A program made the translations under genes and the position numbers. Positions 42,110 through 60,259 of a stretch of DNA of 64,000 nucleotides are shown in pieces. The notes under the pieces were generated by a model that was not told where the DNA came from, did not search any database, and saw nothing but the letters and a program-made list of their open reading frames with translations. The stretch lies in contig NZ_JARGZA010000011.1 of the NCBI RefSeq assembly GCF_030973515.1, positions 1-64,000 of the forward strand. Direction: 5' to 3'. Source of the stretch: Jannaschia maritima. GTDB taxonomy: Bacteria; Pseudomonadota; Alphaproteobacteria; Rhodobacterales; Rhodobacteraceae. Within the stretch, counting starts at the first letter, position 1; the number at the start of each line of letters is the position of its first letter.

Positions 42110-42430
42110 ATGGGCACCGTCGCCGTCACCGACAGCACCTTCGACAAGGAGGTGAAGCAAGCCGACATCCCCGTCATCGTGGATTTCTGGGCGGAATGGT
42201 GCGGCCCCTGCAAACAGATCGGCCCCGCGCTGGAGGAACTGGCCGAGGAATACGCCGGCCGGGTCAAGATCGTGAAGGTCAACGTGGACGAGAACCCGCA
42301 ATCCCCCGGCGCGATGGGCGTGCGCGGCATCCCCGCGCTCTTCATGTTCAAGGGCGGCGAGGCCGTCGACCAGAAGATCGGCGCCGCCCCGAAGGCCGCC
42401 CTGAAGGACTGGATCGACGCCGCGGTCTGA
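42110..42430 (+). CDS. trxA: Thioredoxin
   Basis: Small dithiol reductase for ribonucleotide reductase and other proteins. 106 aa with active site WCGPCK (C31, C34), the buried Asp in IVDFWAEW and the cis-Pro loop [16 protein letters not shown] at 42100-42104 is 5 nt before the ATG at 42110, which rules out a TTG start 12 nt upstream. Last gene of the regB-to-trxA block; downstream the accessory cassette begins on the other strand. Confidence 0.96.
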
Positions 42431-42457
42431 GGGGTTCAAGCGGAAGGGAAGAACCCC
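42431..42457 (+). terminator. Weak hairpin after trxA
   Basis: GGGGTTC (42431-42437) pairs with GAACCCC (42451-42457) directly after the stop; no T-run follows. Likely a Rho-assisted or partial terminator. Confidence 0.35.
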
Positions 42458-42637
42458 GCTCCGAGGCTCCGCCGTTCCGAAGACCCGCGCCCCGGGTCCG
42501 CTCCGGGGCCGCCCTCCGCAACTCCGGATGGTTCGGCCGGCCCCGTCACGGTCCCGGATCGATTGCGGGATCATGTCGCCCCCTGGGGTGGACATTCACG
42601 TCCGCCGTTCCCGGGCACCACCCGCCTTGCGACCTCT

Positions 42638-42853
42638 TCAAGCTTGGCCCGAGGCGACCTTGTAATTTCCGTCCTCGGCCCGGACGAGGTAACCGTCCGC
42701 CTCCATCTCGCCCAAATAAGACATCAGCGTATATCCGTCGTGGAATTCGCTTCGCGGCACGCGAAGCCGATGTTCCAAGGCGTACCACCCCATTGGACCA
42801 CGCTCGGTCAGAACCTTCAAAATCTCGTCGCAGACAGGGTCGGGGTGATGCAT
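42638..42853 (-). CDS. Candidate immunity protein of the toxin cassette (winged-helix-like)
   Basis: 71 aa, starting MHHPDPVCDEILKVL 2 nt after the effector stop (ATG at 42853). The sequence reads as a compact helical domain followed by a hairpin: ILKVLTERGPMGWYALEHRL, then DGYTLMSYLGEMEADGYLVRAEDGNYKVA, as in small winged-helix proteins. It has no signal peptide. Position directly after a polymorphic-toxin-like gene is where an immunity protein is expected, and it has no conserved neighbour otherwise. A DNA-binding regulator of the cassette is the alternative. Confidence 0.6.
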   Translation of the reverse strand: MHHPDPVCDEILKVLTERGPMGWYALEHRLRVPRSEFHDGYTLMSYLGEMEADGYLVRAEDGNYKVASGQA

Positions 42854-42855
42854 GG

Positions 42856-44340
42856 TCAAAGGCCCCACGTATCTGGATGGTACAGGGTCGAGTTCTTATC
42901 CGCGTCTACTTCAGAAATGCCGTAGTCTTCCAGAGTCGCGGTATGCGCGTTGTTCCACACATCGTACCCGGGGTCCACGTCGTCCGGAACGCCGAGGTTC
43001 CTGTACCGCTCCAACTCCCGGCGCTCGTGGGTATAGTATCGCAGATCGTAGTCGGTCGGTTCGAGTTCGCCCCTGGATATGCGTTCCAGTCTTTCGACCA
43101 TCGCGGCGTTTGGTGGATAGTCTCCGAAACGATCCGTGTGCAGGCGCACGTCGGCTACGCCGTCTCGATCGATCGTCGCAGTACGCCAATCGGATCGCCT
43201 GATCGGCCCGCCAGCCGCATCCGGATCGTACCTCCGACCGCTCGCCGTCCCCCTCCCGGAATGGTAGGAAAGGCGCTCGGGGTTCTGCTTGTGCTGCCGC
43301 ACCACATGCGGATCCGCGTTTCGCGTGACAGCCTGCCGGATCCGCGTCATGCCTGCCGCGATGGTGGCGAACAGACGGCGTTGCAGATCCTCGGCGGCCT
43401 CCCGAAGACGGGCCGGGGCCTCGGCGCGGAAGGCGGCGACGTGCTCCAGGCCCTCGTCCAGACGACTGTACCAACCGGTCAATCGGCCTAGCCGCGTCTT
43501 CGCGCGGTTCATTCCGGCAACGACGCGATCCATCATGTCGTCCAGCAGGCTCAGCGCAGTATCTAGGTGTCGACCGGTCAGGTCGTGGGCGAAGTTGACC
43601 AACCAGCGATGCGCGTTGCCCCGCATGAAGAAGTTGAAGATCCCATAAAGGGCGCGCAGCGCACCGGAATCTGCGACCCGGCGCAGGACCAGCTTCAGGA
43701 TGCCTTTGGCCAGCGACCCTAGCGTCGGAATTAGTCCGATCAGCGTTATCACCAGAATGATCCAGTGCATCGGCACGTTCCATTCCCGCTTCCAAACGAG
43801 GCGGTAGAGTACGTTCACGATGTCCTGCCCATCGGCCAACTGGTCGACACCGGGGATCATGGTCAGGATCATGCGCGCTATGATCTGGCTTGTGGACGGA
43901 TCCTCCTCGAAATCGCCTTTCAGAACGCCCCAGATCCAGTCGCCTGCATCGGTGATGTTATCCCAGAGCCTGGCGAAGAAGCCGGGGGACGGCTCTCTTA
44001 ACGGAACGGTCGCCTCGGGATCCTCGTAGGAGTCCGACCCTGGATCATCATGGAAATAGTAGACGACCTGGTCGTGCCCGTCGGGTAGCGAAACATGGGC
44101 CTCGCCGTTCTCGTCGGTCACCCCTTCCGCCAGGACGCGGCCCATCGGCTCATCGTCGGTGGGCACCATTCCGACGACGTAGTTCGCGCCACCGACGCCT
44201 GTCCCGTCCTCGTACTCGTACCGGATCTTGATCCAGTTGGTCAGGCAGGACGCGCAGACCGTGCCGATGGGCTCCGCGCCTTGGGCCGCTGCCCCGTCGG
44301 TCGCAGCCTCGAAGGTCGATGGGTACTGGGGGCTACCCAT
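42856..44340 (-). CDS. Polymorphic-toxin-like effector with membrane-active middle
   Basis: 494 aa, no signal peptide. Order: unique N-terminus with a CASC pair (C29, C32) and a beta-rich segment ending TDENGEAHVSLPDG (about 22-95); an acidic linker; a hydrophobic region (about 151-220) with IPGVDQLADGQDIV and a membrane segment at 192-208; a helical region (about 235-350); and a C-terminal toxin-like domain (about 355-494). The latter contains YTHERRE (H438, E439, E442), NNAHTATLEDYG (H466) and LYHP (H488), a combination I associate with C-termini of secreted bacterial toxins. Activity is not assigned. ATG at 44340 overlaps the upstream stop (TAATG). GC is visibly below the core genes. Confidence 0.75.
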   Translation of the reverse strand: MGSPQYPSTFEAATDGAAAQGAEPIGTVCASCLTNWIKIRYEYEDGTGVGGANYVVGMVPTDDEPMGRVLAEGVTDENGEAHVSLPDGHDQVVYYFHDDPGSDSYEDPEATVPLREPSPGFFARLWDNITDAGDWIWGVLKGDFEEDPSTSQIIARMILTMIPGVDQLADGQDIVNVLYRLVWKREWNVPMHWIILVITLIGLIPTLGSLAKGILKLVLRRVADSGALRALYGIFNFFMRGNAHRWLVNFAHDLTGRHLDTALSLLDDMMDRVVAGMNRAKTRLGRLTGWYSRLDEGLEHVAAFRAEAPARLREAAEDLQRRLFATIAAGMTRIRQAVTRNADPHVVRQHKQNPERLSYHSGRGTASGRRYDPDAAGGPIRRSDWRTATIDRDGVADVRLHTDRFGDYPPNAAMVERLERISRGELEPTDYDLRYYTHERRELERYRNLGVPDDVDPGYDVWNNAHTATLEDYGISEVDADKNSTLYHPDTWGL

Positions 44341-45083
44341 TAACCGTCCGCCTCGAGATAGATCCGGCGGATGTCCGCAGCCAGCCGCGCGGGCTCCGCC
44401 CCGGACGCGACCGCTGCAGCCAGACGAGGATACTGCGGATCGCTCGGCCATTGCGGTCCATGCACCAGGGCGCAGGCCATATAGGCCAGGTGACGTGGCC
44501 CGCCGTCGCGGAACGGCGCCGGGGTCACCCTATCCAGCCAATCGAAAAGTTGGTCGTTCTCGGCAGCGGACAGGACACGCCGATGGCCGGGCAACACACG
44601 GAGCAGAGTAGACGTCCGTGGCCCCTCGCCACCATCCATTCCATTAGCGAGACGATCCGCGAACCCGCATAGATCGTCGTCGAGCCAAAGCGCGCGCAGC
44701 CAAGCCTTCGTCTCGCGGATCATGGCGCCCGCACGCCTGTCCGCCGGCCTGCCCGTCGCCATTGCGGCAGACACGCGGCTGCGAAGCCGGGGGTCTTGCC
44801 AGAACCGATGCCCAAGCGCCGCCGCGACGTGGGACAAGCGCATCAGGTCGGCCCCGCCATCGATGCCATGCCGCTCCGCCCACCCGACCGTAGCCTGCAC
44901 GACGCATAGGAGATTATCCGCCGATGCACCGTGCGCGACGTAGTGCATCCTGTAGGCCCGAAAGAGATCCCGCGCCGCCGAAGCGCACCAACGGTTCCGG
45001 GCTCGGCCTTCGAAGACTGCGAACTGTTCAGGAGAAAAACTGACGACCACGCGTCCACCCCAAAGACAGGCCACATGTATCAT
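44340..45083 (-). CDS. Effector adaptor/chaperone-like protein
   Basis: 247 aa from ATG 45083, or 236 aa from a GTG at 45050, which has GGGGTGGA directly upstream and better fits the family N-terminus (SFSPEQFAVFE). The body, with a charged helix, a WAERHGI turn and a segment ending ALGHRFWQDP, follows a pattern seen in small proteins encoded beside secreted toxins and type VI effectors. The C-terminal part has no match I recognise. The stop overlaps the effector start by one base, so the two are made in a fixed ratio. An adaptor or chaperone role is inferred from this position. Confidence 0.62.
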   Translation of the reverse strand: MIHVACLWGGRVVVSFSPEQFAVFEGRARNRWCASAARDLFRAYRMHYVAHGASADNLLCVVQATVGWAERHGIDGGADLMRLSHVAAALGHRFWQDPRLRSRVSAAMATGRPADRRAGAMIRETKAWLRALWLDDDLCGFADRLANGMDGGEGPRTSTLLRVLPGHRRVLSAAENDQLFDWLDRVTPAPFRDGGPRHLAYMACALVHGPQWPSDPQYPRLAAAVASGAEPARLAADIRRIYLEADG

Positions 45084-45490
45084 GGTTCCGGTAAAATGTC
45101 TGTACGCCTGCCGACCACACAGGAACTGCCATTCATCGGCCGAACCGGTCTCGGCCCCCGGTGCGGTCGACTCTGGACCAGCGAACGGCGAGGACGTGCG
45201 GTCCCTCGGCTCCCCCAGGCAGGGGGAACGCCGTAAGGGTTACCCCTTCTGGCACCCCGTCACTCGAGGCGGCGCGCATTCCGGTTCGGCCTCGGCGGTG
45301 CAGACCTCGGGACTTCGACGCAAGACCTTAAGCCGGCACCGCACGGCATCGAACCTTTCTTTCCCCAACCCCCTTTCCACCATCCTGCGCAACATCAACC
45401 GCGCGGTGCCGTTGCGCCGCCCGATATTCGGGCATCGTGCCGCCCCCGTCGGGGTACCGGGCGGGCCGCCGACCCGTCGGCGGCGGCCCC
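45084..45490 (-). other. Upstream region of the toxin cassette, no gene called
   Basis: About 400 bp between the adaptor gene and the iteron repeat. It holds two small hairpins (TCCCCC with GGGGGA at 45212-45228, and AAGGG/CCCTT just after) and a T/C-rich patch near 45355-45385. Short frames here (for example 45240-45500 minus) have no domain and are read as noise. The cassette promoter should lie here but no clear one was found. Confidence 0.45.
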
Positions 45491-45531
45491 GCGTATGCAC
45501 GGGGGGTGTACGGGGGGTGTACGGGGGGTGC
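45491..45531 (+). repeat. 41-bp iteron repeat, copy A
   Basis: Three near-identical 11-bp units (ACGGGGGGTGT, last one ending GC) follow GCGTATGC. Copy B at 58420-58460 differs by one base in 41 and has the same orientation. It lies 94 bp beyond the 3' end of amtB. The period of one DNA turn suggests a protein-binding array. Confidence 0.75.
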
Positions 45532-45553
45532 CCCCTCCCCGCCGGAACGAATC

Positions 45554-45579
45554 GGCCCCGGACGTCTCCGCCCGGGGCC
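45554..45579. terminator. Terminator-like hairpin downstream of amtB
   Basis: GGCCCCGG (45554-45561) pairs with CCGGGGCC (45572-45579), 46 nt beyond the amtB stop. A T-rich run (TTCCTTTTC) follows on the plus strand and GATTCGTTCC on the minus strand. Confidence 0.6.
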
Positions 45580-45624
45580 TTCCTTTTCGCGCAGGTCCCC
45601 CCCGAGGGAGGACGGGGGGTTCGC

Positions 45625-46971
<1,347 letters not shown>

Positions 46972-46993
46972 TCTCTCGTTCCCCTCTGGTGGA

Positions 46994-47332
46994 TCAGATC
47001 GCGTCGTCGTTCAGCTCGCCCGTGCGCACGCGGACGGCCTGGTCCACGTCCAGGACGAACACCTTGCCGTCGCCGATCTTGTCGGTCTTGGCCGTGCTCA
47101 CGATGGTCTCGACGACCTGGTCGGCCATCGCGGCGGCGACCACGATCTCCAGCTTGACCTTCGGCACGAAGTTCACGGCGTACTCCGCGCCGCGGTAGAT
47201 CTCGGTGTGGCCCGACTGGCTGCCGAACCCCTTGATCTCCGTCACCATCATGCCGCGCACGCCGATGGCGGTCAGCGCTTCGCGCACCTCCTCCAGCTTG
47301 AACGGCTTGATCGCTGCTATGATGAGTTTCAC
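46994..47332 (-). CDS. glnK: Nitrogen regulatory PII protein GlnK
   Basis: Trimeric signal protein for nitrogen status. 112 aa with the T-loop uridylylation site Y51 in RGAEYAVNFVPK, the B-loop TGKIGDG-like stretch TDKIGDGKVF and ending GELNDDAI. First gene of glnK-amtB. No canonical NtrC dyad or -24/-12 element was identified in the 248-bp region upstream. Confidence 0.96.
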   Translation of the reverse strand: MKLIIAAIKPFKLEEVREALTAIGVRGMMVTEIKGFGSQSGHTEIYRGAEYAVNFVPKVKLEIVVAAAMADQVVETIVSTAKTDKIGDGKVFVLDVDQAVRVRTGELNDDAI

Positions 47333-47580
47333 GGCGATTCCCCTTGCTGCGGCGCGAACGCCAGTGGCGGCAGGTCAGGCGGGGGACCCCGCGAACGCAA
47401 CGCATCGCCACGCCGCGCCGAACGGGCATCGGCGGGTTTGCCGATAATTGTGCCTATTTTTAGGGCGCTGCCTGGAATTTAGCCGTTTGTCGAAGCGTCG
47501 ATTTCGGGCCGGGGGGCGTGCAAACGCCCCCCGAGAGCGCGTAAGGGTTCGTCGGACCGGATCGGGACGCGGGCAGGACG

Positions 47581-49740
47581 ATGGCGAAGAACACGGCACG
47601 ACGGCGGCTGGTGGCCGAACGGCGGACGCAGCCGAAGGCCCCCAAGCGCAAGGCGCCCACCCGGCGCCGCAAGGCCGCCCCGCCCAGGCGGCGGGGCCTG
47701 GCCTATTGGCTGACCTGGCCGCTCCGGTTCCTCCTGCGCCTGACCTGGTACGCCGCGACCCGGGGCGCGCTGGTGGGCCTGCTGATCCTGGGCGTCGCCG
47801 TGGCCTACGACTACCTCCGGATCCCGGACCTGGCGACGCTGGCGGACGGTCGGGCGCGGGGATCGGTGACCTTGCAGGACCGCGAGGGCACCGTCTTCGC
47901 CTGGCGCGGGGACCAGTTCGGCGGCCTCGTCACGACCGACAACGTGTCCCCCCGCCTGGTGCAGGCCGTCGTCGCGGCGGAGGACAAGCGCTTCTACCGC
48001 CATCCCGGCGTCGACCCGATTGGCATCGCCAGCGCCATCCGCATCAACCTGCGCGAAGGCCGCGGGCCGCTCTCGGGCAACGGCGGCTCGACCATCACCC
48101 AGCAGGTCGCCAAGCTGCTGTGCCTGGGCGTCGACTACGACCCGTCGATGGGCATGACCGAAGCCCAGTTCGAGGCCGATTGTCGGCGCGGAACCGTGTG
48201 GCGCAAGCTGAAGGAGATCCCCTACGCGCTGGCGCTAGAGCTGAAGTTCACGAAGGACGAGATCCTGTCGATCTATCTGAACCGCGCCTATCTCGGTGCG
48301 GGCGCGCGGGGCTTCGCCGCGGCCAGCCAGCGCTACTTCGGCCGGAACGTGGCCGACCTGGACGCCTCGGAGGCCGCGATGCTGGCGGGCCTCCTGCCGG
48401 CACCGTCCTACTATGCGCCCACGGGCAACCTGACCCGCGCCCGCGAGCGCGCGGCCACCGTCCTGCGGTTGATGAACGACCAGGGCTATCTGACGGACGC
48501 CGCCTTCGCGCAGTCGCTCGACGCGCCCGCGGGCCTGTCGGTCGCCGCGCGCCAGGACGTCGGTGGGTACTTCGCCGATTGGATCGTCACCGACGCCCCC
48601 GACTTCCTGGGCGAGGACACGACCGAGGACGTCATCATCGCCACCACCCTCGACCAGAGCATCCAGCGCGCTGCCGAAGACGCGTTGGAGGTCATCTTCG
48701 ACACGAAGGTCCGCCCGGGATCGGAAGCGCAGGCCGCCATCGTGGTGATGGACGCCGATGGCGCGGTGCGCGCGATGGTGGGGGGCCGCAACACGCGCGG
48801 GGCGGGCCTGTTCAACCGGGCCTATCAGGCACGGCGCCAGACCGGCAGCGCGTTCAAGCCCTTCGTCTATGCCGCGGCACTTGACCTTGGATACCGCTGG
48901 GACAGTCCCGTCCTCGACGCGCCCCTGTCGATCCAGGTGCCCGGATCGGGAACCTATTCGCCGGAGAACTATTCCCGCGACTATTACGGCGAGGTGACGT
49001 TGACGGAATCGCTGGCGCGGTCCCTGAACACGTCCACCGTGCGCCTGTCGGAGGCCGTGGGCCGCGACGTCGTGCGCAACGTGGCGACCGATTTCGGCAT
49101 CGTCTCCGACCTCGCCGCGGGGCCCGCCCTGGCGCTGGGGGTCAGCGAATCCACCCTGCTGGAGATGACGGGCGCCTATGCCGGCATCCTGAACGGCGGC
49201 ACTTCCGTCACGCCCTATGGCCTGACGTCCATCACGCTGCGGGGCGACACCGATCCGCTCCTGGACCGCGAGGGCGGTCTGGGCGAGCGCGTGATCTCGG
49301 AGGCGGCGGCGCGGCAGCTGACCTACATGATGTCGCGCGTGATCGCGGCGGGCACGGGGCAGCGGGCGCAACTGCCCGGCGGACGCCCGGCCGCGGGCAA
49401 GACGGGCACGACGCAGGCCGCCCGCGACGCCTGGTTCGTGGGCTTCACCGGCGACTACGTCGCGGGGGTGTGGATGGGCTACGACGACAACACCCCCCTG
49501 TCGGGCGTGACAGGCGGCGGCCTGCCGGCCGAGATCTGGCGCGAGGCGATGGCCCGCATCCACGACGGCCGCCCGGTCACGCCCCTGCCCGACTTCGATC
49601 CGGGCGCAGACCGCGTGCGCCGCGAACGCCAGATCGTCGTCCAGGTGCCCGAAGCGGTCCAGCCCGTCCCGCCGCCTTCCGACAACCTGGCGGAGCGGAT
49701 CCTCACGGACGTGCTGGGCAGCCTGTTCGGCGGTCGCTGA
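47581..49740 (+). CDS. mrcA: Class A penicillin-binding protein (PBP1A-like)
   Basis: Bifunctional peptidoglycan glycosyltransferase and transpeptidase. 719 aa: a very basic cytoplasmic N-terminus (about 1-40), one membrane anchor (about 62-82), the GT51 domain with EDKRFYRHPGVDPIGI and the GGSTITQQVAK motif, and the transpeptidase with nucleophile Ser in TGSAFKPF, SLN and KTGTT. The C-terminal tail is short. It is divergent from glnK across 248 bp. The ATG at 47581 has only a weak AGGA. Confidence 0.93.
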   Translation: MAKNTARRRLVAERRTQPKAPKRKAPTRRRKAAPPRRRGLAYWLTWPLRFLLRLTWYAATRGALVGLLILGVAVAYDYLRIPDLATLADGRARGSVTLQDREGTVFAWRGDQFGGLVTTDNVSPRLVQAVVAAEDKRFYRHPGVDPIGIASAIRINLREGRGPLSGNGGSTITQQVAKLLCLGVDYDPSMGMTEAQFEADCRRGTVWRKLKEIPYALALELKFTKDEILSIYLNRAYLGAGARGFAAASQRYFGRNVADLDASEAAMLAGLLPAPSYYAPTGNLTRARERAATVLRLMNDQGYLTDAAFAQSLDAPAGLSVAARQDVGGYFADWIVTDAPDFLGEDTTEDVIIATTLDQSIQRAAEDALEVIFDTKVRPGSEAQAAIVVMDADGAVRAMVGGRNTRGAGLFNRAYQARRQTGSAFKPFVYAAALDLGYRWDSPVLDAPLSIQVPGSGTYSPENYSRDYYGEVTLTESLARSLNTSTVRLSEAVGRDVVRNVATDFGIVSDLAAGPALALGVSESTLLEMTGAYAGILNGGTSVTPYGLTSITLRGDTDPLLDREGGLGERVISEAAARQLTYMMSRVIAAGTGQRAQLPGGRPAAGKTGTTQAARDAWFVGFTGDYVAGVWMGYDDNTPLSGVTGGGLPAEIWREAMARIHDGRPVTPLPDFDPGADRVRRERQIVVQVPEAVQPVPPPSDNLAERILTDVLGSLFGGR

Positions 49741-49841
49741 GCCGGCGGTCTTCATCCTTCGTTGTCACCCCGCCCGCTAGGTGGTCGCATCCCCCGACGG
49801 GACGGGGTATCACGCCCCCGGGCACGATTGGACGACGCGAC

Positions 49842-51584
49842 ATGGCACTCAGGACGGGCAATCCGCACGACGGCGCGGCCGAGGTCGCGGACCTTCGGCG
49901 CAAGGGGACCACCCTCCTGGTGATGGCGTTCCTGTTCTCGGTCGTCGTCAACGCGCTGATGCTGACCGGCCCGATCTACATGCTGCAGGTCTATGACCGA
50001 GTGCTGTCGTCCCGGTCGGAGGCGACGCTGATCGCCCTGACCGCGCTCGTGACGTTCCTGTTCCTGATGATGGGCGTGATGGACCACCTGCGCGGACGGG
50101 TGATGGCCCGCTTCGGGGCGCGGTTCCAGGACGGGTTGGACAGCCGCGTCTTCCAGGCCCACCTGAAGCGCGCCGCCTTCGCGCAGGGCGGTCCCGGCGG
50201 GCGCAACCCCCTGCGCGACGTGGAAGCCGTGCAGCGCCTGCTGGCCTCGCCCGTGTTCCTGGCGCTGTTCGACGCACCCTGGACGCCGTTCTTCCTGGCC
50301 GCGATCTTCATCTTCCACCCGCTGCTGGGCCTGCTGGCCGTGGGCGGGGGGCTGGTGCTGATCACGGTCGCCATCCTGAACCAATGGCTGACCTCCGGCC
50401 CCATGGCGCAGGCCAACCAGGCCAGCGCGCGGGCCGAGCTGACGGCCCAGCAGCTGGCGTCGGATGCCGAGCTGGTCCATTCGCTGGGGATGCGCGGATC
50501 GGCCTTCCGACGCTGGCAGACCGCGCGGGGCCAGTCGCTTGAGGACGGGGTGACCTATTCCGACCGCTCCGGGCTGTTCACGGTCACCACGAAGACGCTG
50601 CGCCTGTTCCTGCAATCCATGATGCTGGGCTTGGGCGCCTGGCTGGTCCTGCAGGAGCAGCTGACCGCGGGCGCCATGATCGCGGGCTCGATCCTGCTGG
50701 GCCGGGCGCTCGCGCCGTTGGAATTGCTGATCGGGCAGTGGCAGCTGGTCCAGGCCGCGCGCAAGGGCCGCTCGGCGGTGGTCGAGCTCCTGTCCGAGAT
50801 CCCGCCGGAGCGCGAACGCCACCCCCTGCCGCGGCCTCAGGCCCATCTGGTCGCCGAGAACCTGACCGTCTTTCCGCCCGGCGCGCAGCAGGCGACCCTG
50901 CGCGGGATCGGCTTCGCGCTGAAGCCCGGTCAGGCGATGGGCGTGATCGGCCCGTCGGGCGCGGGCAAGACGACGCTCGCCAAGGCGCTGACCGGCGTGT
51001 GGCCGCCGGCGGGCGGCAAGATCCGGCTCGATACCGCGACGCTGGACCAGTACGACGCCGACGTGCTGGGCGGCTATGTCGGCTATCTGCCGCAGACCGT
51101 CACGCTGTTCGACGGCACCATCGCCGAGAACATCGCCCGCCTTTCGACCGACCCCGACCCCGCCGCCGTCGTGGCCGCCGCGAAGAAGGCCGCCGCGCAC
51201 GAGATGATCACGGCCCAGCCGCAGGGCTACGACACCCCCGTCACCGCGGTGGGCGGGCGGTTGTCGGGCGGCCAGATCCAGCGCATCGGACTGGCGCGCG
51301 CGATGTACGGGGATCCGGTCCTTCTGGTCCTGGACGAGCCCAACAGCAACCTCGACAACGAGGGCACGGAAGCGCTGAACCGCGCCATCGCCGCCCACAA
51401 GGACCGGGGCGGGGCGGTCATCATCATCGCCCACCGCCCCGCCGCCATCAAGGAATGCGAGGTTCTGCTGATGTTGCGCGGCGGCATGCGCGTGGCCTTC
51501 GGCCCGCGCGAGGAGGTGCTGCGCGACATGGTCAAGAACCACGCCGCCATCACGCAGACGCAGGACGCCGGGGGCGTGACATGA
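49842..51584 (+). CDS. Type I secretion ABC transporter (PrtD/PrsD-like)
   Basis: 580 aa. Six-helix membrane domain (about 28-310), then the ATPase: Walker A IGPSGAGKTT, signature RLSGGQIQRIGLARA, Walker B VLLVLDEPNSNLD and switch His IIIAHRP. There is no peptidase C39 domain, which places it with exporters of RTX-type proteins and adhesins. Pairs with the HlyD-like gene (4-nt overlap). No RTX substrate or TolC homologue lies in the window. Confidence 0.9.
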   Translation: MALRTGNPHDGAAEVADLRRKGTTLLVMAFLFSVVVNALMLTGPIYMLQVYDRVLSSRSEATLIALTALVTFLFLMMGVMDHLRGRVMARFGARFQDGLDSRVFQAHLKRAAFAQGGPGGRNPLRDVEAVQRLLASPVFLALFDAPWTPFFLAAIFIFHPLLGLLAVGGGLVLITVAILNQWLTSGPMAQANQASARAELTAQQLASDAELVHSLGMRGSAFRRWQTARGQSLEDGVTYSDRSGLFTVTTKTLRLFLQSMMLGLGAWLVLQEQLTAGAMIAGSILLGRALAPLELLIGQWQLVQAARKGRSAVVELLSEIPPERERHPLPRPQAHLVAENLTVFPPGAQQATLRGIGFALKPGQAMGVIGPSGAGKTTLAKALTGVWPPAGGKIRLDTATLDQYDADVLGGYVGYLPQTVTLFDGTIAENIARLSTDPDPAAVVAAAKKAAAHEMITAQPQGYDTPVTAVGGRLSGGQIQRIGLARAMYGDPVLLVLDEPNSNLDNEGTEALNRAIAAHKDRGGAVIIIAHRPAAIKECEVLLMLRGGMRVAFGPREEVLRDMVKNHAAITQTQDAGGVT

Positions 51585-52966
51585 ACCAGATGCCGATGCA
51601 GCCGCCGAAGCCCGAAGCGCCCGTCCCCGCGCCGGCGGGCCGGCCGGTGGCGGTCCAGCCGCCCGCCGCGCCGCCCAAGCGGACCTGGACCGCGAAGCGC
51701 CACATCACCATGGGGGTGCTGGCGCTGACCGTCCTGCTGGGGGGCTTCGGCACCTGGGCCGCGACGGCCAACATCTCGGGCGCGATCATCAGCCCGGGCC
51801 GCGTGGCGGTGGAAAGCAACCGTCAGGTCGTGCAGCACCCCGACGGCGGCGTGGTGGCCGAGATCCGCGTCCGCGAAGGGTCCCGCGTGGCCGAGGGGGA
51901 CACCGTCATCGTCCTGGACGACAGCACCCTGCGCGCCGAGAAGACGATCATCGACGACCAGCTGCTCGAGATCGCGGCCCGCACCGCGCGCCTGACCGCG
52001 GAACGCGACGAGGCCCTTGCCATCGCCTTCTCCGACGCCCTGCTGCGGGCCGCCGAAACGGAGGCCGAGATCGAGGACGCGGTCGCGGGCCAGCGCAACC
52101 TGTTCGCCGCCCGCCGCGAATCCACCGCCACCCAGGTCGAGCAGCTGGAACGCCGCAAGGGCCAGATCGACAGCCAGATCGAGGGGATCACCGCCCAGCA
52201 GCAGGCGCTGACCCGTCAGCTGTCCTTCATCGAGGAGGAGCTGACCGCCCAGCAGAGCCTGCTCGACCGCGGCCTGGCGCAGGCCCCCCGCGTCCTCGCC
52301 CTGCAGCGGGAGGAGGCCCGCCTGCTGGGCTCCGTGGGCGAGCTGACGGCCTCCGTCGCCGAGTTCGAGGGACGCATCACCGAGATCGACCTGGAGATCG
52401 CCCGCCTGCGCGCCCAGATCCGCGAAGCGGCCATCACCGAGCTGCGCGACCTGCGCTTCCGCGAGGTCGAGCTGGCCGAACGGTCGCGCGCCCTGGCCGA
52501 ACGGCTGTCCCGGTTGGAGATCACGACCCCCGTGTCGGGCGTCGTCTACGACATGCAGGTCTTCGCGCCGCGCGCCGTGATCCGTCCGGCGGAGCCCGTC
52601 CTCTACGTCATCCCGCAGGACCGTCCCCTCGTGATCCGCACGGAGGTCGAGCCCATCCACATCGACCAGGTCTTCCCCGGCCAGGAGGTGACGCTGCGCC
52701 TGCCCGCCTTCGACGCCCGCACCACGCCCGAGCTGAAGGCCCAGGTGGTCCGCGTGTCGCCCGACGCCTTCACCGACGAGGCGACGCGGCGCACCTACTA
52801 TGCCGCGGAGGTCCTGCCCAACGAGGGCGAGATCGCGCGGCTGGACGGCCAGCCCCTCCTGCCCGGCATGCCGGTGGAGGCGTTCCTGCGCACGGAGGAT
52901 CGCACCCCGATCGAGTATCTCGTGAAGCCGCTGTCGGACTACTTCGTGCGCGCCTTCCGCGAATGA
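51581..52966 (+). CDS. Type I secretion periplasmic adaptor (HlyD family)
   Basis: 461 aa. A Pro-rich cytoplasmic N-terminus, one membrane helix (about 43-62), the lipoyl half-motif VVQHPDGGVVAEIRVREG, long coiled coils (about 110-350, QQALTRQLSFIEEEL among them), and the barrel/second lipoyl half with ITTPVSGVVYDMQVFAP. The C-terminus ends DYFVRAFRE as in PrsE-type adaptors. ATG overlaps the ABC gene stop (ATGA). Confidence 0.92.
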   Translation: MNQMPMQPPKPEAPVPAPAGRPVAVQPPAAPPKRTWTAKRHITMGVLALTVLLGGFGTWAATANISGAIISPGRVAVESNRQVVQHPDGGVVAEIRVREGSRVAEGDTVIVLDDSTLRAEKTIIDDQLLEIAARTARLTAERDEALAIAFSDALLRAAETEAEIEDAVAGQRNLFAARRESTATQVEQLERRKGQIDSQIEGITAQQQALTRQLSFIEEELTAQQSLLDRGLAQAPRVLALQREEARLLGSVGELTASVAEFEGRITEIDLEIARLRAQIREAAITELRDLRFREVELAERSRALAERLSRLEITTPVSGVVYDMQVFAPRAVIRPAEPVLYVIPQDRPLVIRTEVEPIHIDQVFPGQEVTLRLPAFDARTTPELKAQVVRVSPDAFTDEATRRTYYAAEVLPNEGEIARLDGQPLLPGMPVEAFLRTEDRTPIEYLVKPLSDYFVRAFRE

Positions 52967-53036
52967 GGCGCACCCCGCGTTGCGCTCCGCCCGGGGCTTG
53001 GGCAATGTGAGGGCATCGTTAACGGAGTTTCGTCCC

Positions 53037-53495
53037 ATGACCATCGACGCCAAGCTGGCCGAACACGGCATCGACCTGTCCGTGCCGCCCGCCCCCGCCG
53101 CCAACTACGTCCCCCATGTCCGCGCGGGCGGCCTGCTGTTCGTGTCGGGCCAGATCAGCCGCGACGACGATGGGCTCATCACGGGCGTGCTGGGCGACGA
53201 GATGTCGGTCGAGGACGGGGCCCGCGCCGCGCGCACCTGCGCGATCGCCCTGCTGGCGCAGGTCAAGGACGCCTGCGGCGGGGACCTGTCGAAGCTGCGT
53301 CGCGTCGTGAAGCTGACGGGCTTCGTGAACTCGACGAAGGACTTCGCGGACCAGCCGAAGGTCGTCAACGGCGCGTCCGACCTGCTGGTCGAGCTGCTGG
53401 GCGATGCGGGGCGCCATTCCCGCTCCGCGGTGTCCGCGGGCGCCCTGCCGCTGGGCGTCGCGGTCGAGATCGAAGGCATCTTCGAGATCGAATGA
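53037..53495 (+). CDS. ridA: RidA/YjgF-family protein
   Basis: Hydrolyses reactive enamine/imine intermediates from PLP enzymes, or a relative of unknown substrate. 152 aa with LFVSGQISRDDDG, RTCAIALLAQVKDACGG and the C-terminal GALPLGVAVEIEGIFEI, which carries the conserved position near the trimer active site. The catalytic Arg of the canonical RidA is not evident, so it may belong to a RidA-like subgroup. GGAG lies 10 nt before the ATG at 53037. Confidence 0.88.
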   Translation: MTIDAKLAEHGIDLSVPPAPAANYVPHVRAGGLLFVSGQISRDDDGLITGVLGDEMSVEDGARAARTCAIALLAQVKDACGGDLSKLRRVVKLTGFVNSTKDFADQPKVVNGASDLLVELLGDAGRHSRSAVSAGALPLGVAVEIEGIFEIE

Positions 53496-53526
53496 TCCGG
53501 CCCGTCCCGCGACGGGGGGCGCGGTG

Positions 53527-54285
53527 ATGCCCCTGCTGCCCCGTACGTTCCTGAACCCGGGCCATATCGCCCATCGCGGCCTGCACGGCCCCGGCATTCC
53601 CGAGAACTCCGCATCGGCGTTCCGGGCGGCCATCGCGCGCGGCTATGCGGTCGAGATGGACGTCCAGCCGTCGCGCGACGGGGTGCCGATGGCGTTCCAC
53701 GACGATGCGCTCGACCGTCTGACCGCACGGGGCGGCCTGGTCGATTCCCTGTCCGCCGCCGAGCTGGCGGACCTGCCCCTGACCGGATCGGACGCCGCGG
53801 AAGGGGTGCCGACCCTGCGCGGGGCGCTCGACCTGATCGCGGGCCGCGTCCCCGTGGTCGTCGAGCTGAAGGACCGCGACGGCGACATGGGCGACCGCGT
53901 CGGCCCGCTGGAGGACGCCGTGGCGGAGGTCCTGCGCGGCTATCGCGGCGACCTGGCGGTGATGTCCTTCAACCCGCACACTGTGGGACGCCTGGCCGAC
54001 CTGCTGCCCGAAGTGCCCCGCGGCCTGGTCACGTCCGACTTCCGGGCCGGGCAATGGCCCGGACTGTCCCCCGCCACGCGCGAGCGGCTGGCCGGGATAC
54101 CGGACTTCGACCGCGTCGGCGCCTCGTTCGTCAGCCATCAGGCGGACGCGCTCGCGATGCCGCGGATCGCCGCGCTGAAGGCGCGGGGCGTGCCGATCCT
54201 GTGCTGGACCATCCCCTGCGCGGGCCTGGAGGCGATGGTCCGTCGGGTCGCGGACGCGGTGACGTTCGAAGGCTACTTGCCTTGA
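53527..54285 (+). CDS. ugpQ: Cytoplasmic glycerophosphodiester phosphodiesterase (UgpQ-type)
   Basis: 252 aa, no signal peptide. The catalytic motif HIAHRGLHGPGIPENSASAF, VEMDVQPSRDGVPMAFHDD and VELKDRD carry the His pair and metal-binding Glu/Asp. Shorter than the periplasmic enzyme at 15929 and lacking its insert, so it likely acts on imported glycerophosphodiesters. ATG at 53527, with GTG three nt earlier as alternative. ridA ends 31 nt upstream. Confidence 0.9.
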   Translation: MPLLPRTFLNPGHIAHRGLHGPGIPENSASAFRAAIARGYAVEMDVQPSRDGVPMAFHDDALDRLTARGGLVDSLSAAELADLPLTGSDAAEGVPTLRGALDLIAGRVPVVVELKDRDGDMGDRVGPLEDAVAEVLRGYRGDLAVMSFNPHTVGRLADLLPEVPRGLVTSDFRAGQWPGLSPATRERLAGIPDFDRVGASFVSHQADALAMPRIAALKARGVPILCWTIPCAGLEAMVRRVADAVTFEGYLP

Positions 54286-54310
54286 CGCGAAGCCCCCCCA
54301 AGTCGGGGGG

Positions 54311-55492
54311 ATGACGACCGACCTGACGATCGAGCTCCGCGACGGCGTCGCCTCCGTCGACGCGGCGGACTGGGACGCCTGCGCCTGCCCGGAGGCGGCG
54401 GAGGGCGGACGTCCGAACGACCCGTTCACGACGCACCGCTTCCTCGCCGCGCTGGAGGACAGCGGATCGGTCGGCCGGGGCACGGGCTGGGGCCCCCAGC
54501 CGATGGTGGCGCGCCGGGGCGACACGTTGATCGGGGTGGCGCCGCTCTATGCCAAGGCGCACAGCCAGGGCGAGTACATCTTCGATCACAACTGGGCCCA
54601 TGCCTGGGAGCGTGCGGGCGGCGACTACTACCCCAAGCTGCAGATCGCGGTGCCGTTCACGCCGGCCACCGGCCGACGTTTCCTGACCCGCCCCGACGAC
54701 GCCGACGCGTTCGACGCCCTGATCGCCGGCGCCGTCCAGGTCACCGAAACGAACGGCCTGTCGTCCCTGCACGCGACGTTCTGCACACGGGCCGAACGCG
54801 ATGCGGGCGAGGCGATCGGCCTGTTGGGCCGGTCGTCGCAGCAATACCATTGGCTGAACGACGGCTACGCCGACTTCGACGCCTTCCTGGCCGCCCTGTC
54901 GTCGCGCAAGCGCAAGAACATCCGCAAGGAACGCGCGCAGGCCCAGGGCTTTGGCGGCACGATCCACGCCCTGACCGGCGACGCGATCCGGTCCCACCAT
55001 TGGGACGCGTTCTGGCGGTTCTATCAGGACACGGGCGCGCGCAAGTGGGGCCAGCCGTACCTGACGCGGGCCTTCTTCGACGCCGCGCAGGAATGTCTGC
55101 GCGACGACATGCTCTTGGTCCTGGCCGAACGCGACGGAACCTTTGTGGCGGGCGCGCTGAACTTCATCGGGCGGGACACCCTGTTCGGCCGCTATTGGGG
55201 ATGCACCGAGCACCACCCCGCCCTCCACTTCGAGTTGTGCTATTATCAGGCCATCGACTTCGCCATCGCGCAGGGCCTGTCGCGCGTGGAGGCGGGCGCC
55301 CAGGGCGAGCACAAGCTGGCGCGCGGCTATCTGCCCGTGACCTGCCATTCCCTGCACCACATCCCCAACGAATCGTTCCGGGACGCGGTGGCGCAATTCC
55401 TGCGCGCCGAATCCCGCGCCGTGGAACGCGACATCGAGGTCCTGACCGGCTATGGCCCCTTCCGGCGGGTCGAAATCGAGGAACAGCAGTGA
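54311..55492 (+). CDS. FemAB-like GNAT acyltransferase (DUF482)
   Basis: 393 aa. Pattern of the FemAB_like/peptidogalycan biosynthesis family: PFTTHRFLAALEDSGSVG, YIFDHNWAHAWER, then SSLHATFC, WLNDGYADFDAFLAALSSRKRKNIRKERA and GCTEHHPALHFELCYYQAIDFAI. The reaction is presumed amide or ester acyl transfer; no substrate is known. A C7/G6 hairpin covers the ribosome-binding site directly before the ATG at 54311. The stop is shared with phhB (GTGA). Confidence 0.85.
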   Translation: MTTDLTIELRDGVASVDAADWDACACPEAAEGGRPNDPFTTHRFLAALEDSGSVGRGTGWGPQPMVARRGDTLIGVAPLYAKAHSQGEYIFDHNWAHAWERAGGDYYPKLQIAVPFTPATGRRFLTRPDDADAFDALIAGAVQVTETNGLSSLHATFCTRAERDAGEAIGLLGRSSQQYHWLNDGYADFDAFLAALSSRKRKNIRKERAQAQGFGGTIHALTGDAIRSHHWDAFWRFYQDTGARKWGQPYLTRAFFDAAQECLRDDMLLVLAERDGTFVAGALNFIGRDTLFGRYWGCTEHHPALHFELCYYQAIDFAIAQGLSRVEAGAQGEHKLARGYLPVTCHSLHHIPNESFRDAVAQFLRAESRAVERDIEVLTGYGPFRRVEIEEQQ

Positions 55493-55749
55493 TCCCGGGT
55501 TCCATCCCCGATGGCTGGATGCTGGACGGCGACGCGATCGTGCGCCGCTACGTCTTTTCCGGCTTCCCGGCGGCCTGGGCGTTCATGTCCCGTGTCGCGC
55601 TGCTGGCCGAACGGCACGACCACCATCCCGACTGGCGCAACTCGTGGAACCGGGTCGAGATCCGCCTGACGACCCACGACACGGGCGGCGTGACGGCTCG
55701 CGACCTCGACCTGGCCCGTGCCATCGATGCGATCCCCGCCACTGGATAA
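55489..55749 (+). CDS. phhB: Pterin-4a-carbinolamine dehydratase
   Basis: Dehydrates 4a-hydroxytetrahydrobiopterin to recycle the pterin cofactor of aromatic amino-acid hydroxylases. 86 aa with the fold-defining LAERHDHHPDW motif (two catalytic His) and RVEIRLTTHDTGGVTARDLDLA. GTG start at 55489 inside the stop of the previous gene. No hydroxylase gene is present nearby, so the pterin partner is outside the window. Confidence 0.9.
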   Translation: MIPGSIPDGWMLDGDAIVRRYVFSGFPAAWAFMSRVALLAERHDHHPDWRNSWNRVEIRLTTHDTGGVTARDLDLARAIDAIPATG

Positions 55750-55798
55750 GCGTACGTCGCCGGTCTAGTCCCTGGCTGCGGACAACGACGGGACGACG

Positions 55799-56647: not shown

Positions 56648-56650
56648 ACC

Positions 56651-58228
56651 ATGCGCGACTTCCACCTGCCCGGCCGGTCCGCCACCTATGCGGCGAACGG
56701 CATGTGCGCCACGTCGCATCCCCTCGGCGCGCTGGTCGCGATCGACACCCTGCGCCGCGGGGGCAACGCCGCCGACGCGGCCATCGCGGGCGCGATCGTC
56801 CTGGGCCTGTGCGAGCCGCAGATGACGGGACTGGGCGGCGACATGTTCGCGCTGGTCAAGCCGGCCGGATCGGACGACGTCGCGGCGCTGAACGGGTCGG
56901 GTCGCGCGCCCGCGGGCGCCGACGCCTCGGACCTCCGGGATGCGGGTCACGCCGTGGTCCCGCCGGATGGTCCCGCCGCCGTCACGATCCCCGGCGCGGT
57001 GGACGGCTTCTGCGCCCTGTCGGACCGCCACGGCGCGTTGGGCCTGCAGGACACGCTGGGCCCCGTGATCGCGGCGTTCGACGCGGGCGTCCCGGTCGCG
57101 CCCCGCGTGGCCTTCGACTGGGCGGTCGCGGGCGGCACGCCGCAGGGATCGGCGCGCGCCGTCTATCTGAAGGACGGCGCCCCGCCGCGCGCGGGCGACC
57201 CGTTCGCCCTGCCCGGGCAGGCGGAGGTGCTGCGCCGGATCGCGAAGGACGGTCGCGACGGGTTCTATGCGGGCGAGGTCGCGGACGACATGACAGCCTC
57301 GCTGCGGGCGGCGGGGGGCGTCCACACGGAGGACGACTTCGCCGCCACGCGCGCCGATTGGGCCACGCCCCTGTTCGGGCGCTACGGCGGACACGACCTG
57401 ATCGAGCATCCGCCGAACGGCCAGGGCGCGACCGCGATCCTGATGGCCGACATCCTGTCCCATACGGACTATGCCGACGCCGACCCCCTGTCCGCCCGTC
57501 GCGTCCACCTGGAGGCGGAGGCCGCGCGCTTGGCCTACGACGCGCGCAACCGCTTCGTCGCCGACCCCGACCATGCCGCGGGCGCGGCCGCCATGCTGGA
57601 CGCGGACGTGGCCCGGCGGCTGGCGGCGCTGATCGATCCGAACCGCGCGAGCGCCACCCTGGTCCAGGGAGCGGAGGCCGTGCACCGCGACACCATCTAC
57701 ATCACCGTGGTGGACCGCGACCGCATGGCCGTTTCGCTGATCTATTCGATCTTCCACAGCTTCGGCAGCGGCATCGCGTCGGACCGCTTCGGCATCCTGT
57801 TCCAGAACCGCGGCGCGGGCTTCACGCTGACGCCGGGCCACCCGAACGAGTTGGGACCGGGCAAGCGGCCGATGCACACGATCATCCCCGGCATGCTGGC
57901 CCGGGACGGCGTGGTGCATACGTCCTTCGGCGTGATGGGCGGACAATACCAGCCCAACGGTCACGTCCGCTTCCTGTCGAACGTCGCGGATCACGGCATG
58001 GACGTGCAGGCGGCCATCGACGCGCCGCGCGCCTTCGCCGACGGGCCGGTCCTGAACGTCGAGCGCGGCTATGGCGACGACGTCCGCTCGGCGCTGTCGG
58101 ACATGGGCCACGACGTCCGCATCCCCGAGACCGCCATCGGCGGCGCGCAGGCGATCGTGATGGACCCCGCCGGTCACCTGATCGGCGGCAGCGATCCCCG
58201 CAAGGACGGCTGCGCGCTGGGATACTGA
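56651..58228 (+). CDS. ggt: Gamma-glutamyltransferase
   Basis: Cleaves gamma-glutamyl bonds, mainly of glutathione. 525 aa; autoprocessing before the nucleophile T348, which aligns with the E. coli Thr in a DTIYITVVD segment. The large-subunit GGNAADAAIAGAIVLG and the small-subunit PMHTIIPGMLARDG are typical. No signal peptide is seen, so it may be a cytosolic member. Alternative roles such as cephalosporin or gamma-glutamyl-amine acylase cannot be excluded. Confidence 0.9.
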   Translation: MRDFHLPGRSATYAANGMCATSHPLGALVAIDTLRRGGNAADAAIAGAIVLGLCEPQMTGLGGDMFALVKPAGSDDVAALNGSGRAPAGADASDLRDAGHAVVPPDGPAAVTIPGAVDGFCALSDRHGALGLQDTLGPVIAAFDAGVPVAPRVAFDWAVAGGTPQGSARAVYLKDGAPPRAGDPFALPGQAEVLRRIAKDGRDGFYAGEVADDMTASLRAAGGVHTEDDFAATRADWATPLFGRYGGHDLIEHPPNGQGATAILMADILSHTDYADADPLSARRVHLEAEAARLAYDARNRFVADPDHAAGAAAMLDADVARRLAALIDPNRASATLVQGAEAVHRDTIYITVVDRDRMAVSLIYSIFHSFGSGIASDRFGILFQNRGAGFTLTPGHPNELGPGKRPMHTIIPGMLARDGVVHTSFGVMGGQYQPNGHVRFLSNVADHGMDVQAAIDAPRAFADGPVLNVERGYGDDVRSALSDMGHDVRIPETAIGGAQAIVMDPAGHLIGGSDPRKDGCALGY

Positions 58229-58419
58229 CGCCTGACGGATCGTCCCCGGGGATCCATTCCGCCACCGGCACCGGGACCGGCCGCGCGAGCGGCGGGACGG
58301 TCCGGGGGACCGTTCCGAGGTCCGAAGCGCGACCCGCCCCGGGGCGCCGGATCACCCCCCCGTCTCGGAACGCTGCGTTCTGTCAAGACGGCCGCAACGC
58401 GCGCTGTCTCATCTGCACT
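58229..58419 (+). other. Intergenic DNA beyond ggt, no gene seen
   Basis: Together with 58461-58603 this makes a 375-bp gap between ggt and serA stops, interrupted by the iteron repeat. Short frames here have no domain. No T-run terminator was recognised behind ggt. Confidence 0.5.
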
Positions 58420-58460
58420 GCGTATGCACGGGGGGTGCACGGGGGGTGTACGGGGGGTGC
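58420..58460 (+). repeat. 41-bp iteron repeat, copy B
   Basis: Same three-unit 11-bp array as copy A (45491-45531), differing at one base, in the same orientation, 144 nt beyond the 3' end of serA. The sequences on either side are unrelated between copies, so the conserved unit is the repeat itself. Confidence 0.75.
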
Positions 58461-58603
58461 ATGTGTCATATTCGCCGAAACGGACTGCCGACGATTCGAC
58501 CGACCCGCGCAACACCGTTGTTATCGCTGGAAAATTCTCCGATCGGAACGATCCGAACGATTTCCCCTGCCTCCCAGGCCCCGCTCGGCGTTACCACTCG
58601 GCA
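58461..58603 (-). other. serA downstream region
   Basis: 143 nt. On the minus strand TCGGA-TCGT-TCCGA is a small 5-bp hairpin about 40 nt after the serA stop, and an AT-richer patch (AATTTTCC) follows. A weak terminator is possible. Confidence 0.35.
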
Positions 58604-60196
58604 TCACATCTCGAACCGCAAGGGCGACACCGACTGGAACAGGCCCGTCGCCTTCAGCTTGTCCAGCACGGACGCGGGCGGCTGGTCGTCGAGGTACAGC
58701 AGCGCGATCGCCTCCTTTCCCCGGTCCGACCGGCCCAGGGTGAAGTTCGCGATGTTCACCCCGTTCTCGCCCATTGTCTGTCCCAGGGCGCCGATGATGC
58801 CGGGCATGTCCTCGTTGGTGGTATAGAGCATATGCGCCCCCACCTCGGCGTCGATGTTGATGCCCTTGATCTGGATGAACCGCGGCTTGCCGTCGCTGAA
58901 CACCGTGCCCGCGACCGACCGTTCGCGCGTGGGCGTGCGGACGATCAACTTGACGTATCCGTCGAACACGCCCGTCTTGTCCTGACGGGTGGTCGAGATC
59001 TCGACTCCCCGTTCCCGCGCGATGACGGGGGCTGACACCATGTTCACGTCGGGGTTCACGACCTTCATCAAGCCCGCGATGGCAGCGCAGTTCAACGCCT
59101 CCAGGTTCATCGCGGCCACGGACCCGTTGTAGACGATCTCGATCGCCTCGATCGAATCCTGCGTCAGCTGTCCGGCGAAGGCGCCCAGATGCTCGGCCAG
59201 CTTCAGCCAGGGACCCATCACCTTGGCCTCCTCGGCGGTGACGGACGGCATGTTCAGCGCGTTCGACACGGCCCCCGTCAGCAGATAGTCGGCCATCTGC
59301 TCGGCCACCTGCAGGGCCACGTTCTCCTGCGCCTCGGTCGTGGCGGCCCCCAGATGCGGGGTGCAGACCACGTTCGGCAGACCGAAGAGCGGGCTGTCCG
59401 TCGCGGGCTCCTCCGCGAACACGTCGAAGCCCGCACCCGCGACGTGACCGGATCGCAGCAGGTCGGCCAGCGCGGCCTCGTCCACCAGACCGCCCCGCGC
59501 GCAGTTGACGATGCGCACGCCCTTCTTCGTCTTGGCCAGGTTCTCGGCCGACAGGATGTTTCGCGTCTGATCGGTCAGCGGCACGTGCAGCGTGATCACG
59601 TCCGCCCGCCCCAGCAACTCGTCCAGTTCCACCTTGCGGATGTGCAGTTCCGTCGCGCGCTCCTCGGACAGGAAGGGGTCGTAGGCCACGACCTTCATGC
59701 CCAGGCCCACGGCCTTCTGGCAGACGATGCCGCCGATGTTGCCCGCGCCGATCACGCCCAGCGTCTTGCCGGTCAGCTCGACGCCCATGAAGCGCGCCTT
59801 CTCCCACTTTCCGGCCTGGGTGCTGGCATCGGCCTCGGGGATCTGACGCGCGACCGCGAACATCAGCGCGATGGCGTGTTCGGCGGTCGTGATCATGTTG
59901 CCGTAAGGCGTGTTCATCACGATCACGCCGCGCTTGCTGGCGGCCGGCTTGTCGACGTTGTCCGTGCCGATGCCCGCGCGGCCCACGACCTTCAGATTGG
60001 TCGCGCGGTCCAGCAGCTTCTCCGTCACCTTGGTCGCGGACCGGATCGCGAGGCCGTCGTAGTTGGCGATGACGGCGGCCAGCTTCTCCTTGTCCTTGCC
60101 CAATCCGGGATCGAAGGTCACGTCGATGCCGCGATCCCGGAAGATCTGCACGGCGGTTTCGGACAGCTTGTCGCTGACCAGCACTTTGGGGGCCAT
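58604..60196 (-). CDS. serA: Phosphoglycerate dehydrogenase
   Basis: First enzyme of serine synthesis, NAD-dependent. 530 aa; substrate/NAD domains with GRAGIGTDNVD, the NAD-binding GAGNIGGIVCQKA, and the ELDELLGRADVITLHVPLT region; catalytic Arg-Glu-His in the CARGGLVDE and PHLGAATTEAQ loops. The length includes the extra ACT and ASB domains at the C-terminus (GINIDAEVGAHMLYTTNEDMPG), as in long-type SerA. AAGGAG precedes the ATG at 60196. Downstream of serC by 63 nt. Confidence 0.95.
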   Translation of the reverse strand: MAPKVLVSDKLSETAVQIFRDRGIDVTFDPGLGKDKEKLAAVIANYDGLAIRSATKVTEKLLDRATNLKVVGRAGIGTDNVDKPAASKRGVIVMNTPYGNMITTAEHAIALMFAVARQIPEADASTQAGKWEKARFMGVELTGKTLGVIGAGNIGGIVCQKAVGLGMKVVAYDPFLSEERATELHIRKVELDELLGRADVITLHVPLTDQTRNILSAENLAKTKKGVRIVNCARGGLVDEAALADLLRSGHVAGAGFDVFAEEPATDSPLFGLPNVVCTPHLGAATTEAQENVALQVAEQMADYLLTGAVSNALNMPSVTAEEAKVMGPWLKLAEHLGAFAGQLTQDSIEAIEIVYNGSVAAMNLEALNCAAIAGLMKVVNPDVNMVSAPVIARERGVEISTTRQDKTGVFDGYVKLIVRTPTRERSVAGTVFSDGKPRFIQIKGINIDAEVGAHMLYTTNEDMPGIIGALGQTMGENGVNIANFTLGRSDRGKEAIALLYLDDQPPASVLDKLKATGLFQSVSPLRFEM

Positions 60197-60259
60197 CTCG
60201 GGCTCCTTCTGGGAAATGCACGAAGTCCGAAGCGCGGTCTGCACGCTCCGTACGAGAAA

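Follow-up and report, generated by a model that had tools for sequence, protein, structure and literature searches.

A 41-bp iteron triplet in Jannaschia maritima belongs to a spaced, replication-oriented set of arrays whose word varies between species

The arrays in the window and in the genome

The stretch analysed here, the first 64,000 nucleotides of contig NZ_JARGZA010000011.1 of Jannaschia maritima (hereafter the window), carries two near-identical 41-bp arrays of 11-bp direct repeats, copy A beyond the 3' end of amtB and copy B between a convergent gene pair (Table 1). Copy A is a lineage-specific member of a set of iteron triplets that are spaced along the chromosome and oriented relative to replication, and whose word varies between species; this layout is well supported.

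The three units of copy A, of the form TGYACGGGGGG, occupy 45496-45506, 45507-45517, and 45518-45528. Their 11-bp period is perfect from 45499 to 45530, and the third unit deviates only in its last base (TGC, not TGT). Copy B differs by one T/C change within the units and in the base after the array. An earlier reading of the window from its letters alone (the sequence-only reading) had described the three units and a second near-identical copy about 13 kb away. Both observations were confirmed, and the interpretation attached to them was partly supported.

Below, G000 denotes the genome of the window, G001 onward denote Jannaschia congeners, and L numbers denote fetched loci. Within the window, GCGTATGCACGGGGGG occurs exactly twice, and tolerating up to three mismatches gives three matches versus 2.2 expected, so that the window by itself is uninformative. 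Across the whole of G000, ACGGGGGGTGYACGGGGGG was found 60+35 times, versus none for the pattern read backwards. The pattern GTATGYACGGGGGG matched 64 exact places (81 with up to one mismatch), versus 2+2 for the reversed control. The sequence-only reading would have accepted chance or recent duplication had the genome held only two copies with no conservation in relatives; the 64 exact places, and array places shared by some congeners, speak against that outcome.

For further analysis, 66 G000 loci were assembled from the 64 exact places, one close pair being merged, and three one-mismatch places, each with 2.5 kb on either side where contigs allowed. With up to two mismatches tolerated per unit, three TGYAC-RGGGGG units were counted in 58 loci, two in 8, and four in none. 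An AT-rich WTTY motif, picked after looking at the arrays, follows the last unit within about 20 bp in 29/66 loci, versus 4.4 in control pieces from the same loci.

The flanks of copies A and B had been said to differ. This was partly wrong, as copy B ends a multi-hairpin repeat of about 165 bp (hereafter the body) that is found, in the same orientation as the array, beside 34/66 G000 arrays; no body match was found beside copy A. The body lies within 5 bp of the array in 24 loci and 26-54 bp away in 9, and in L101 it adjoins a tandem neighbour. Three body matches in 225 kb of contig C42 and the window all lie beside arrays. G007 gave no match, either in 34 array loci or in 400 kb taken from elsewhere in that genome; the body was therefore gained in the G000 lineage, and what stays constant is the array. 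At one locus (L125, G000 C41 about 113.6-114.3 kb), five body matches stand in tandem, the internal copies ending in a truncated first iteron, GTATGCACGGGGGC.

Table 1. Arrays, repeat body, and neighbouring genes in the window
Feature	Position	Strand	Description
Copy A	45491..45531	+	GCGTATGC, then three 11-bp iterons, ending GTGC
amtB (ammonium transporter)	45625..46971	-	stop about 95 bp from copy A
gamma-glutamyltranspeptidase gene	56651..58228	+	ends before copy B; convergent with serA
Multi-hairpin body	58274..58416	+	adjoins copy B on its 5' side on the G strand; nhmmer E 4.8e-20
Copy B	58420..58460	+	array as in copy A, ending GTGCAT
serA (phosphoglycerate dehydrogenase)	58604..60196	-	ends after copy B

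Orientation, spacing, and placement between genes

The orientation of the arrays was compared with local GC skew, measured with -350 to +200 bp around each array masked. The G-rich strand has negative skew, as the lagging strand does, at 60/66 G000 loci (P=3e-12) and at 30/33 G007 loci (P=1e-6; one of 34 loci, in which the pattern used found no array, was left out). The same rule holds for 32 of the 33 fetched loci of G013, G005, G001, G012, and G015 (9, 7, 7, 3, and 7, respectively), giving 122/132 arrays overall. Copies A and B obey it (skew -0.046 and -0.041), and G000 arrays with the body (30/34) and without it (30/32) are alike polar. At fourfold sites in G000, negative skew was present for sense (47/54 loci) and antisense genes (45/50), at -0.119 and -0.191, respectively; because the effect is present for genes of both directions, the G000 polarity is not one of transcription. 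Sense genes in G007 gave an equally directed, clear result (29/30 loci).

Other landmarks were also considered. On contig C42, both the genes and the skew mark the minus strand left of parS as the leading one, and four of five arrays lie on the plus strand; the fifth falls within a stretch of reversed skew. The 8-mer GGGNAGGG, which resembles the FtsK-orienting polar sequence (KOPS), backs the strand assignment in G007 (43 versus 19, P=0.003) and weakly in G000 (59 versus 45, P=0.20). Arrays of congeners with a GATC-type word (next section) are polar as well. The GTGATC strand has positive skew in 16/18 loci of seven rich species (P=0.0013), a count from which seven loci of other species and five duplicates were excluded, and in the single-contig genome G014, 18/23 GATC-type arrays are polar relative to an origin placed by parS (P=0.011). 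The words on the leading strand begin alike: GTGCACCCCCC, GTGCATACGTC in G013, GTGATCYACGG, and GTGTTACGGCT.

The arrays are held apart when compared with uniform placement. Among 63 clusters in G000, one gap is shorter than 10 kb versus 9.2 expected (P=0.00015). The 38 arrays of G007 have one gap below 20 kb versus 7.8 expected (P=0.0007), with a coefficient of variation of 0.67 (P=0.006). For the 23 GATC-type arrays of G014 the minimum gap is significant (P=0.015).

By our own gene finder, which gave a coding fraction of 0.87-0.89, 64/66 arrays in G000 and 33/33 in G007 lie outside predicted genes. Divergent gaps are avoided when expectation is set by the number of gaps (5 versus 17.6 expected in G000, 4 versus 9.8 in G007), and convergent gaps are over-represented (22 versus 11.0 and 10 versus 4.7, respectively); these counts omit four G000 loci without a predicted gene on one side and two intragenic arrays. 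When gaps are weighed by length, the convergent excess is kept in G007 (10 versus 4.2 expected) and lost in G000 (22 versus 26.8, P=0.24). Between tandem genes, the arrays lie in sense orientation in 34 cases versus 18.

Turnover of the word and shared places

TGYAC-N6 triplets were found in 9/20 congeners, of which G003 and G019 had only 2 matches; the exact G6 word was found in 7/20 congeners and in 0/40 genomes outside the genus. The region 3' of gltD allows the words to be compared at one place. A G6-type word lies directly there in G007, G012, G005, and G001; in G000 and G015 it is found no more than 900 bp away, beyond an additional gene. At the same place, G010, G003, G004, G014, and G016 carry GGGTGATC-type 11-mers, some degenerate, and G017 and G011 carry TGTTACGGCTG; the other seven Jannaschia genomes have no recognised array there. 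Many of the Jannaschia gltD 3' flanks (L331-L350) also show by eye a GTCAGC-n-GCTGAC-like palindrome between the array and the next gene, perhaps an operator of that gene.

The word seen at gltD predicted a genome-wide word, GRTGAYCNNNGGRTGAYC, which was then searched. It matched 41 times in G010, 40 in G014, 30 in G005, 24 in G001, 23 in G004, 10 in G003, 9 in G016, and 4 in G018, and once each in G015, G006, G009, and G011, with no match of the reversed control in any of the 20 genomes; the other eight, including G000, G007, G012, and G013, had none. Seven congeners thus carry GGGTGATCYAC-type words genome-wide. Both G6-type and GATC-type arrays are present in G001 and G005, as if in transition between words. 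Arrays in G013 (L034, L040, L045, L283-L290) mix 11-bp words, for example CGTATGCACGG with TGCACGGGGGG, and are possible intermediates in word change. The stress that the sequence-only reading laid on G-runs does not generalise, since words of other species lack the G6 run.

Some array places are common to two to six species, as judged from the fetched array loci of seven species. Locus pairs with common flanking genes recur. In nearly all of them the array keeps its orientation with respect to those genes, except in L097-L159 and in two pairs whose array positions do not coincide, L078-L328 and L174-L330. Between G000 and G007, the projected positions of ten pairs fall no more than 100 bp apart, in addition to the gltD place with its extra gene in G000. 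The flanks of coincident sites are about 72-83% identical between species, and in alignments inspected by eye the array is a conserved block amid poorly aligned intergenic DNA; the L289/L326 pair gave no clean alignment of the array. A place at phaA is common to G000, G007, G013, and G015, four genomes that group as one clade in the tree. When the phaA flank was scanned in 19 congeners, period-11 arrays (at least 16/22) were found only in these four genomes; periods 9, 12, 10, 14, and 15 gave 3, 2, 1, 1, and 1, respectively. Conservation of the 11-bp period, of the number of units, three, of the polarity, and of some places bears out the earlier terms 'iteron' and 'maintained as a unit'.

The gltD place was also surveyed in the best 80 of 581 relatives, by examining 250 bp past the gene. 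A period-11 window of at least 16/22 was present at 14/80 loci, versus none at period 11 in 344 control pieces; among other periods from 7 to 20, period 20 gave one and the rest none. At a cut-off of at least 15, 18/80 loci matched versus 2/333 controls, and at a cut-off of at least 18 a single anomalous control piece gave matches at all periods. When ten periods were searched at 17/22 or better in 1.28 Mb, period 11 accounted for 10/14 tandem arrays outside predicted genes, and each of these ten, the strongest gltD arrays, begins between -1 and +25 bp of the gltD stop. Genes were predicted by a finder that had been trained on G000 and that detects none in some genomes of this survey. The gltD words are lineage-specific: GTACACCCCCY in Nioella, GTCGGTATCGC in Shimia, ATGCACAWCC in Harenicola, and GTACACAACCT in a metagenome-assembled genome of Planktomarina. 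The gltD gene lies on the positive-skew strand in 75/80 genomes, and the gltD array therefore cannot separate a role specific to gltD or to 3' ends from a role in replication. The chromosome-wide set is shown only inside Jannaschia, and the gltD array alone is no proof of it in other genera.

Possible function and alternative explanations

The observations to be explained are the anatomy, number, polarity, and spacing of the arrays, the positional conservation of some sites, and the turnover of the word. We tentatively favour an explanation, to which we give somewhat less than an even chance, in which the 41-bp block is one of about 65 chromosomal sites in G000, each made up of three 11-bp direct repeats. 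The usual number of units, three, together with their exact 11-bp step and constant direction, suggests head-to-tail binding on one face of the DNA, and several copies, or several DNA-binding domains, of one putative protein would bind in this way. The operators of the MerR-type protein CarH, with three or four such repeats in tandem (PMC9304148), have the same geometry, and the cooperative binding of BldC multimers to direct repeats (PMC5859096) offers a further lead. Each site would be read relative to replication, the repeat strand starting GT (GTGCACCCCCC here) being the leading strand, and the sites would be held at least 10 kb apart, between genes and away from divergent promoters. Such spread-out, fork-oriented marks could serve chromosome upkeep through segregation, domain organisation, or the handling of forks and transcription. 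Protein and word would coevolve, the word changing at many sites of a genome and the period, polarity, and some places persisting. The broader proposal is that the chromosomes of Rhodobacterales have a replication-oriented address system, hitherto undescribed, of tens of spread-out triplets of 11-bp words. A putative protein would bind them head-to-tail and would coevolve with the word, at a pace that leaves congeners with different words even at the same place. This proposal is possible but doubtful.

If true, a bacterial order would have chromosome-wide, strand-oriented marks whose word changes within a genus, with period, polarity, and, at gltD, the place kept. The role of spaced polar marks, and the joint change of a protein and tens of sites, would become testable. 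Even with a humbler purpose, word turnover at the fixed gltD place is a natural experiment in the coevolution of site and protein.

Several results weigh against this explanation. Antisense genes in G007 show negative skew below significance (16/25 loci). Skew changes sign in patches along the G007 chromosome. Its arrays track the local sign, not two clean arms from origin to terminus, so that their orientation may be inherited with DNA blocks and not enforced. At the coincident G000-G007 site L097-L159 the array is inverted. The spacing of G014 has a coefficient of variation without significance (P=0.14). No array type was recognised in G002, G006, G008, and G009, and only a few matches were found in G018 and G019, with 17-34 kb of each genome scanned by period. 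At the phaA place, no alternative word was seen in species without a G6 array. Among the flanks examined, only G000 has copies A and B. No array lies within 1500 bp after amtB in 18 other species (G017 has no full match) or within 1500 bp after serA in 19; one 18/22 period-11 window in the serA flank of G006, in a GC-rich stretch, was taken for chance. The absence of the two copies from congeners means that sites turn over. Finally, we infer the binding of a protein, its family, and its purpose.

A mobile repeat resembling repetitive extragenic palindromes (REP) or miniature inverted-repeat transposable elements, inserting into single-stranded DNA at the fork, would explain polarity by its insertion mechanism and spacing by target immunity. 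The hairpin-rich body at 34/66 arrays, its five tandem matches at L125, and the many lineage-specific sites, copies A and B among them, fit such an element, and REP and bacterial interspersed mosaic elements, served by REP-associated tyrosine transposases (RAYT, Y1 type), are likewise interspersed between genes. The array, however, is a direct repeat without a palindromic unit, the hairpins belong only to the G000 body, and arrays without the body are equally polar. Coincident sites are shared across species despite the divergence of their flanks, and across the order arrays of differing words occupy the gltD site. The RAYT/REP family was rejected because Y1_Tnp (PF01797; E<=0.001) has no match in the array-rich genomes G000, G007, G013, and G015, other transposase families lying outside this search; it was matched in only 3/20 congeners. 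With the low-complexity filter on, copy A matched none of 72,556 plasmid records, and 50,697 phage records gave one weak partial match of 34 bases to copy B and the body. One viral contig carries the exact G6 pattern and none the GATC pattern. We regard a mobile repeat as rather unlikely. The viral match is L481 (IMGVR_UViG_3300034019_000950). Plasmid and phage iterons, which occur as a few copies beside rep or an origin on mobile replicons, do not correspond to 64 exact copies dispersed over many contigs.

An element acting at transcript 3' ends, by termination, by loading of Rho on the C-rich strand, or by mRNA 3' processing, would suit the number of convergent gaps, the avoidance of divergent ones, the sense bias between tandem genes, and the position of the strongest gltD arrays just past the stop; given the strand of gltD, that array fits either reading. 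Replication polarity nevertheless exceeds the gene-sense bias, and the G000 convergent excess is lost by length. Moreover, the words differ too much between species for an apparent common RNA signal, and Rfam at the gathering threshold gave no match in window positions 44000-60300. We regard a 3'-end element as unlikely.

The arrays could instead be operators of one dispersed regulon. The operators of CarH, a MerR-type (B12) protein, are runs of three or four 11-bp direct repeats with the word nnnnTnnACAn (PMC9304148). The arrays have this geometry, and their TGYAC[A/G] resembles the CarH word. In some species TGYACG/TGYACA agrees with three to four of the four fixed letters. Other words fail to fit, among them several at gltD (for example L393, L396, L422, and L453). 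The CarH operators of that paper overlap promoters, whereas the arrays number tens, are polar and spaced, which are not operator features, and avoid divergent gaps between predicted genes. BldC, described in PMC5859096 as binding direct repeats in cooperative multimers, RdfS, and excisionase-type winged-helix proteins offer a comparable analogy, being MerR-like or winged-helix proteins that appear to act cooperatively on direct repeats or as oligomers. A CarH-like regulon is improbable. A G-run structure, whether a G-quadruplex or G-tract polarity, as function or cause of the strand bias is very improbable: although the array has three G6 tracts off the lagging-strand template, GATC-type and TTACGG-type arrays have the same layout without G6 runs, the GATC type puts its G-richer strand on the opposite replication strand, and G-quadruplexes as a general mechanism were rejected on the words of the other species.

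Known chromosome-wide marks were compared with the favoured explanation of fork-oriented protein sites. KOPS and architecture-imparting sequences (AIMS), which act with FtsK, are likewise chromosome-wide and oriented relative to replication. PMC13342612 gives KOPS as the 8-mer GGGNAGGG and reports its polarity in large replicons, Paracoccus being among the strains studied; a D. shibae paper (PMC7901474) mentions KOPS only in general. The array words lack GGGNAGGG, which sits elsewhere and, in G007, favours the leading strand; the arrays are rare triplets with lineage-specific words. Searches of PubMed Central by word and topic, a coverage that leaves most subscription papers outside, found no description of these sites; the sole match by word was a paper on badger pathogens. 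A further likeness is to matS and the sites of SlmA and Noc, where tens of chromosomal sites serve one organising protein. Those sites are palindromic, are not known to be polar, and are conserved in sequence, unlike the arrays.

Two minor observations concern the surroundings of arrays. Nine contigs of G015 (C12, C13, C27, C32, C33, C42, C72, C73, and C81) start or stop within about 510 bp of an array, so arrays or adjoining repeats may break assembly. Left of copy A, window positions 42430-45083 hold two long minus-strand open reading frames that have no Pfam match and are rejected by the coding model; this is possibly an acquired stretch.
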